Assembly (NCBI GenBank): GCA_903885795.1
Contig: CAISJV010000017.1
Location: forward strand, 124,001 to 188,000
From: an uncultured delta proteobacterium
GTDB taxonomy: Bacteria > Desulfobacterota > Syntrophia > Syntrophales > UBA8958
DNA: 64,000 bases
Reading direction: 5' to 3'
Of this stretch, positions 36,011-36,628 are shown piece by piece. How positions within the stretch are numbered: the first letter of the stretch is position 1; every line of letters begins with the position of its first letter. The translations under genes were made by a program, and so were the position numbers. The notes beneath the pieces are model-generated. The model did not search any database. It saw only the letters and a list, made by a program, of their open reading frames with translations, and was not told the DNA's origin.

Positions 36011-36577
36011 TCAATTCCACCTTGCGTAGCGGGCTTTCAGATAAGTCTGGGCTCTTTCATACCCCAGGCTCGCCGATATCTTCACTTTTTCCCTGCCAAT
36101 CTTTGCGTCTCCGTACATGCTTTGAATGATCCCCAGCCAGAAATAGGCCGCCGCGTATTGCCTGTTTATAGAGATTGCCTTGTCGAAATCGACCATGGCT
36201 AGGTGATATTCTTCACACTTTCCATATGCGATGCCGCGATTGAAATAGTATTTGGCTTCACCGGGATTAAGCTGGATGGCCTTACTGAAATCACGGATGG
36301 CCGGACGGAAATCTTCGAGTTCGGTGTAGGATATCCCACGATTGGAGTACGCGTCTGCATATTCGGGGTTGATCCTGATGGCCTGCGTGTATGCCCTCAC
36401 GGCGACGCGGGAGTTTCCCATCTCCTCATATACAAACCCCTTACTTAACCATTCTTCGGCGCTCATACTAAGAACTTTCTCTCCGGAAGCTGCGGAATGG
36501 GCTGGCATCATCACAAACAGAAGAATGATCATAGTCACACAGGCGGCTGCCAACCGCACAGGCATCATGAATACCAT
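36011..36577 (-). CDS. secreted tetratricopeptide-repeat protein
   Basis: The 188-residue product has an N-terminal signal peptide (hydrophobic AAACVTMIILLFVMMPAHSA) and then at least three TPR units of about 34 residues (AYTQAIRINPEYADAYSNRG, DFSKAIQLNPGEAKYYFNRG, DFDKAISINRQYAAAYFWLG). The start is ATG 36577, with GGGGAGG eight bases upstream; a TTG six bases earlier would be too close to it. A near-perfect sigma-28 promoter lies just upstream, so it may be a motility-regulon protein acting in the periplasm. The partner is unknown. Confidence 0.85.
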   Translation of the reverse strand: MVFMMPVRLAAACVTMIILLFVMMPAHSAASGEKVLSMSAEEWLSKGFVYEEMGNSRVAVRAYTQAIRINPEYADAYSNRGISYTELEDFRPAIRDFSKAIQLNPGEAKYYFNRGIAYGKCEEYHLAMVDFDKAISINRQYAAAYFWLGIIQSMYGDAKIGREKVKISASLGYERAQTYLKARYARWN

Positions 36578-36601
36578 CGGCAAAACCTCCCCTCGGAAAA
36601 T

Positions 36602-36628
36602 ATATCGGCAGAATCGGGAAAAACTTTA
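36602..36628 (-). promoter_or_regulatory. sigma-28 (FliA) type promoter of the TPR gene
   Basis: On the minus strand TAAAGTTT is followed after exactly 11 bases by GCCGATAT. The enteric FliA consensus is TAAAGTTT-N11-GCCGATAA, so 15 of 16 positions match with exact spacing. The predicted start is about 18 bases before the ATG and keeps the GGGGAGG site within the leader. Confidence 0.8.

Follow-up and report, generated by a model that had tools for sequence, protein, structure and literature searches.

A FliA-type promoter precedes a stand-alone exported TPR gene, a likely motility-linked accessory encoded outside the flagellar cluster

The window analysed here is a stretch of 64,000 nucleotides (C17:124001-188000) from the 4.0 Mb genome, in 95 contigs, of an uncultured Syntrophus-like bacterium. 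On its minus strand it carries a gene for an exported TPR protein, which forms a stand-alone unit between a convergent NCS2-type permease gene and a divergent branched-chain amino-acid ABC operon, both named by ORF reading. The features of the gene and its upstream region, in window coordinates, are as follows:

36621..36628, minus strand: -35 element TAAAGTTT, identical to the FliA consensus at 8 of 8 positions
36610..36620, minus strand: 11-nt spacer TTCCCGATTCT, in which the GATTCT proximal to the -10 element is the same in all five orthologues
36602..36609, minus strand: -10 element GCCGATAT, matching GCCGATAA at 7 of 8 positions
36586..36592, minus strand: GGGGAGG as ribosome-binding site, 8 nt ahead of the ATG, read from sequence
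36011..36577, minus strand: gene for the exported TPR protein of 188 aa, from its ATG through the stop codon
36488..36577, minus strand: signal-peptide-like N-terminus (about residues 1-30) with an AHSA-like end and without a conserved lipobox Cys, by inspection
36032..36460, minus strand: four TPRs and a capping helix (residues 40-182, nine helices), by profile and model

The FliA consensus is TAAAGTTT-N11-GCCGATAA, and the original prediction of a near-perfect sigma-28 promoter with this spacing is borne out: the whole promoter, TAAAGTTT-TTCCCGATTCT-GCCGATAT, lies at 36602-36628 of the minus strand and agrees with the consensus at 15 of 16 positions. It has the same -35 element, spacing and -10 element as the class III promoters of FliA (sigma-28, sigma-D), such as those of E. 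coli tar, motAB, flgM and yhjH; the sigma-D promoter of B. subtilis reads TAAA-N15-GCCGATAT. The consensus also agrees with E. coli sites such as TAAAGTTTCCCCCCTCCTTGCCGATAA (tar), as given in PMC4183435. The distance from promoter to start codon, predicted at about 18 bases, needs correction, since the -10 element ends 24 nt before the ATG (36577); counting 18 nt leads to an in-frame TTG (36583), an unlikely start because it lies too near the GGGGAGG ribosome site. Within 36602-36620 part of the -10 element is repeated in the spacer (CCCGATTCT, then GCCGATA), a repeat that is not kept exactly in the most distant orthologue (G140, below); the flgM spacer of the same genome holds a similar CCGAT.

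The genome was searched over 4,016,048 bases in 95 contigs on both strands (2 x 4.016 Mb). Among sites with N11 spacing, the promoter of the TPR gene is the only one with at most one mismatch, for which a composition model gives 0.10 expected; one further site has two mismatches (C17:51341, preceding an ORF of 70 aa within the flagellar region) and another 31 have three, with cumulative expectations for up to one, two and three mismatches of 0.10, 2.3 and 33. At N12 spacing, flaG has the sole one-mismatch site, and six sites have two mismatches. We rejected the genome-wide list of N11 sites with up to three mismatches as a regulon, since its size is that of chance (33 found, 33 expected, and 57 with the reversed pattern as a control); within the window, two such sites were found against 0.46 expected from shuffling. 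Because this list is noise, the case for the promoter rests on its low mismatch number, its position and its conservation. As regards position, only 4 of the 326 ORF starts on C17 that bear a ribosome-binding site have a site within three mismatches, namely those of flaG, the TPR gene, fliD and flgM, and the next-best starts have four mismatches. Each ORF of at least 80 aa enters this list with a single start, with sites sought from -120 to -10, and the 70-aa ORF is therefore missing from it.

The flagellar cluster that we found lies outside the window, at about 49-77 kb of C17 or beyond, and includes the following matches:

C17:71063-71731: fliA (TIGR02479, 250 bits against a cut-off of 189.6)
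C17 52734 and 59660: flagellin-domain matches, the second read as FlgL
C17 about 62533: flgM (Pfam FlgM)

Thus the genome does possess a fliA gene, as a sigma-28 reading requires, and fliD and flaG are found near flgM. The TPR gene is about 89 kb from fliA, and fliA, flgM and the flagellin genes all lie about 89-108 kb away on the same contig. The same type of promoter was looked for at canonical late genes and at flagellin: flgM, fliD and flaG carry one with N12 spacing, within three mismatches, while the main flagellin gene (C17:52722) has no good FliA site near its start, only a three-mismatch N12 site lying about 290 nt upstream. Flagellin in this genome may use another sigma factor. Directly before the flagellin gene lies another TPR gene (C17:51499-52248; L010:13499-14248), whose 249-aa product has no visible signal peptide and which has no FliA-type site.

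Counting our own copy, five orthologues of the TPR gene were found, at 40-86% identity, in three families and in three unrelated neighbourhoods. A close form is present in 4 of 60 relatives, own included (own; G001, 86%; G006, 84%; G012, 58%), and 155 genomes of the order add one more (G140, 164 bits, 40%). A draw of 395 genomes covering part of the phylum gave no further orthologue, only our own copy falling below 1e-36 among the best 8 candidates per genome, and the complete, FliA-bearing genome G002 has no match at 1e-15. Within the stretches read, the neighbourhood is common to own, G001 and G006; it is unrelated in G012 and in G140. The promoters of the four other orthologues, all with N11 spacing, read as follows:

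G001: TAAAGTTT-N11-GCCGATGA, one mismatch
G006: -10 element GCCGATGG, two mismatches
G012: -35 element TGAAGTTT, -10 element GCCGATAA, one mismatch
G140: -35 element TAAAGTTT, -10 element GCCGATAC, one mismatch

All five orthologues, own included, thus keep the motif with one or two mismatches, as expected for a genuine regulon member. DNA of own and G012 is conserved across the promoter and poorly so in the flanks, and since the neighbourhoods of G012 and G140 differ, the promoter travels with the gene. The predicted isolation of the gene also stands, as flagellar neighbours are absent from all three neighbourhood types, in the stretches read of own, G001, G012 and G140. Not all TPR homologues can be taken as orthologues, a possibility that we rejected: none of 44 weaker homologue loci has a FliA-type site near the gene, within loci that hold at most about 1.5 kb before the match, so that the starts of very long ORFs may fall outside view. 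(The 44 distinct loci come from 48 rows, L124 left aside, of which 4 repeat one place.) One of the weaker homologues, L134, has a three-mismatch site about 1.4 kb upstream.

The three closest copies of the gene have dN/dS values of 0.18-0.27. Pfam TPR_1 matches the protein at 87 bits in three stretches, and a structure model built from a 32-row alignment has a mean pLDDT of 88, with nine helices across residues 40-182 (ten-residue blocks at 91-99) and low confidence for residues 1-30; a model from the five orthologues alone was poor (pLDDT 53). Sequence and fold searches of the PDB matched consensus TPRs, OGT and MamA, that is, generic TPR only, with no functional lead. A generic TPR end-of-group domain of NCBIfam just passes (32.8 against a cut-off of 32), and the best named NCBIfam matches, NlpI, MamA and PilW, are all far under cut-off. 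The protein was rejected as a TPR lipoprotein of the PilW, Tgl or NlpI kind, because its NCBIfam scores fall below the cut-offs (NlpI 60/250 bits, PilW 48/154, Tgl 27/225) and because, among the orthologues compared, no conserved Cys of a lipobox lies near the cleavage region. As read from sequence, then, the protein gives its fold, not its client. Of the periplasmic TPR scaffold proposed originally, the signal peptide (by eye) and the four TPRs (by profile and model) were recovered, and the scaffold role is one that we infer.

We conclude that the promoter is of FliA type, which is well supported, and regard a motor role of the product as putative. Membership of the motility regulon gains support from the fliA gene of the genome and from the promoter that the late genes and all five orthologues share, and the motility programme probably includes the TPR gene as a member so far overlooked. 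The reading that we consider likely is that a FliA (sigma-28) promoter drives a stand-alone exported four-TPR gene whose product is a flagellar or motility-linked accessory. After completion of the hook, export of FlgM would release FliA, and the TPR gene would be transcribed together with flgM, fliD and flaG. The protein would then cross the inner membrane by Sec, lose its signal peptide and serve as a periplasmic adaptor that binds peptides or proteins. Its most likely client would be a late addition, either a component of the flagellar motor or stator or an envelope complex linked to motility.

The gene is distributed as expected of an accessory in flagellated members, most flagellated relatives being without it: FliA is found at 1e-40 in 32 of the 60 relatives and the TPR orthologue in 4 of the same 60. 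Carriers of the gene that have FliA are own, G001, G012 and G140. In G006, FliA (at 1e-40) and FlhA were not found, though gene and promoter are kept; since FliD is present (83%), we read these absences as a putative assembly gap, and reject a non-motile G006. Some kind of flagellar gene occurs in 5 of 5 gene carriers, and FliA in 32 of 60 relatives, a comparison that is suggestive and no more.

It is possible, if on balance doubtful, that the FliA-type promoter serves a protein unrelated to the motor, such as a motility-coupled envelope or surface factor acting in polysaccharide, pilus or adhesion assembly or in signalling. A precedent is nfrBA-ybcH of E. coli, which is FliA-activated and includes the gene for NfrA, a TPR protein that is exported and belongs to an exopolysaccharide system (PMC8669469). 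Like NfrA, the product studied here would be exported and rich in TPRs and would belong to the FliA cascade without being flagellar (PMC8669469), but NfrA carries a large outer-membrane part at its C-terminus and shares an operon with a polysaccharide synthase, whereas our protein consists of TPRs only and has no operon. The absence of the gene from most flagellated relatives is consistent with such a non-motor function, as are NlpI, MamA and PilW as top named NCBIfam matches, far under cut-off as these are; against it, polysaccharide and pilus genes are absent beside the TPR gene in all three neighbourhood types.

A different question is raised by the spacer, whose conservation on the TPR gene exceeds what FliA binding needs. 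Its last six bases, the GATTCT beside the -10 element, are identical in 5 of 5 orthologues, and thus in 10 of 10 pairs, whereas spacer pairs of flgM, fliD and flaG share at most five of these six positions, and distant pairs one to four. The full 27-nt element, at up to three mismatches, occurs four times in the 155 genomes of the order, each time upstream of the TPR gene (reversed control, 0). The spacer of G140 diverges more, and its site was recovered by a relaxed extended pattern, which gave 11 sites in the 155 genomes (control, 0), five of them at the TPR gene. The others precede genes for an FlgM-like protein (G034) and the 70-aa family (G043, G009), named by sequence reading, and an MCP-like fragment (G113, named by reading), or are without assignment (G049, G137). 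Because the relaxed pattern also matches FlgM-like, 70-aa and MCP-like genes, the extended element falls within the FliA kind, and what needs explanation is the fixed spacer on the TPR gene. A composite site, in which a second regulator binds the conserved spacer of a FliA promoter so that expression occurs only under an added condition, would account for the identity of these six bases, but we think it rather unlikely: the comparison involves five sequences only, of which three are closely related, partial conservation is seen in fliD spacers too (7 of 11 positions, own against G140), and there is no linked regulator. That the match arose by chance and the TPR gene is transcribed from a standard sigma-70 promoter is highly improbable, for although 0.10 expected sites per genome would allow it on one genome alone, five orthologues keep the site, including two with unrelated neighbourhoods and a protein identity of 40-58%.

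Returning to the motility-linked accessory that we favour, its most specific form would be a periplasmic TPR subunit of the motor or stator that is specific to the lineage, installed last under FliA, encoded outside the cluster and subject to a second control in the spacer; we hold this narrower version to be rather unlikely. If true, it would mean that a motor scaffold may be optional and added late, on a schedule set by FliA; neighbourhood-based surveys, by their very construction, miss parts of this class. PflA/PflB, MotC/MotK and FlcA/FlcB are described as TPR proteins serving the motor from the periplasm (PMC11870540, PMC10954123, PMC13023049). These are large, and PflA and MotK have an AMIN domain, whereas the TPR protein has 188 aa, four TPRs and no N-terminal domain; its match to the FlcA model reaches 19.5 bits against a cut-off of 300. 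The C. jejuni scaffold genes pflA and pflB are not FliA-regulated (PMC11870540). By the features compared, our protein is thus not a member of the PflA, MotK or FlcA type; it resembles other non-flagellar FliA genes such as nfrBA (PMC8669469) and might act as the motor scaffolds MotC, MotK and PflA do.

Compared with the class III genes of FliA, the TPR gene does not belong to the known genes for flagella, chemotaxis or c-di-GMP, stands alone and has a conserved spacer. Genes for motor scaffolds are usually sought near flagellar genes, and this one lies tens of kilobases from fliA. Surveys of periplasmic motor TPR parts rely on such closeness, and by its authors' account one of them may undercount for this reason (PMC11870540). 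A promoter-led search recovers candidates that neighbourhood surveys miss, and the TPR gene is a concrete one; our literature search brought up no paper on this gene, nor on a FliA regulon among relatives of Syntrophus.

Several other genes of the same genome have FliA-type sites as well. The 70-aa protein (MTISAGQVDGVIKAYNKQ...) has no Pfam match and a two-mismatch N11 site at C17:51341-51367 (L019), and similar proteins in G009, G043 and G140 also have a FliA-type site. Two-mismatch N12 sites lie at C20:73201-73228 (L092) and C25:9242-9269 (L093), 39 and 19 nt before the starts of genes for two related proteins of 77-80 aa (BLASTP 26%, E 1e-06), which have no Pfam match and share a C-terminal membrane segment and a WDxQI motif. 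A further two-mismatch N12 site, at C32:46926-46953 (L095), lies 30 nt before the gene for a PAS-type sensor-like protein, named by reading.
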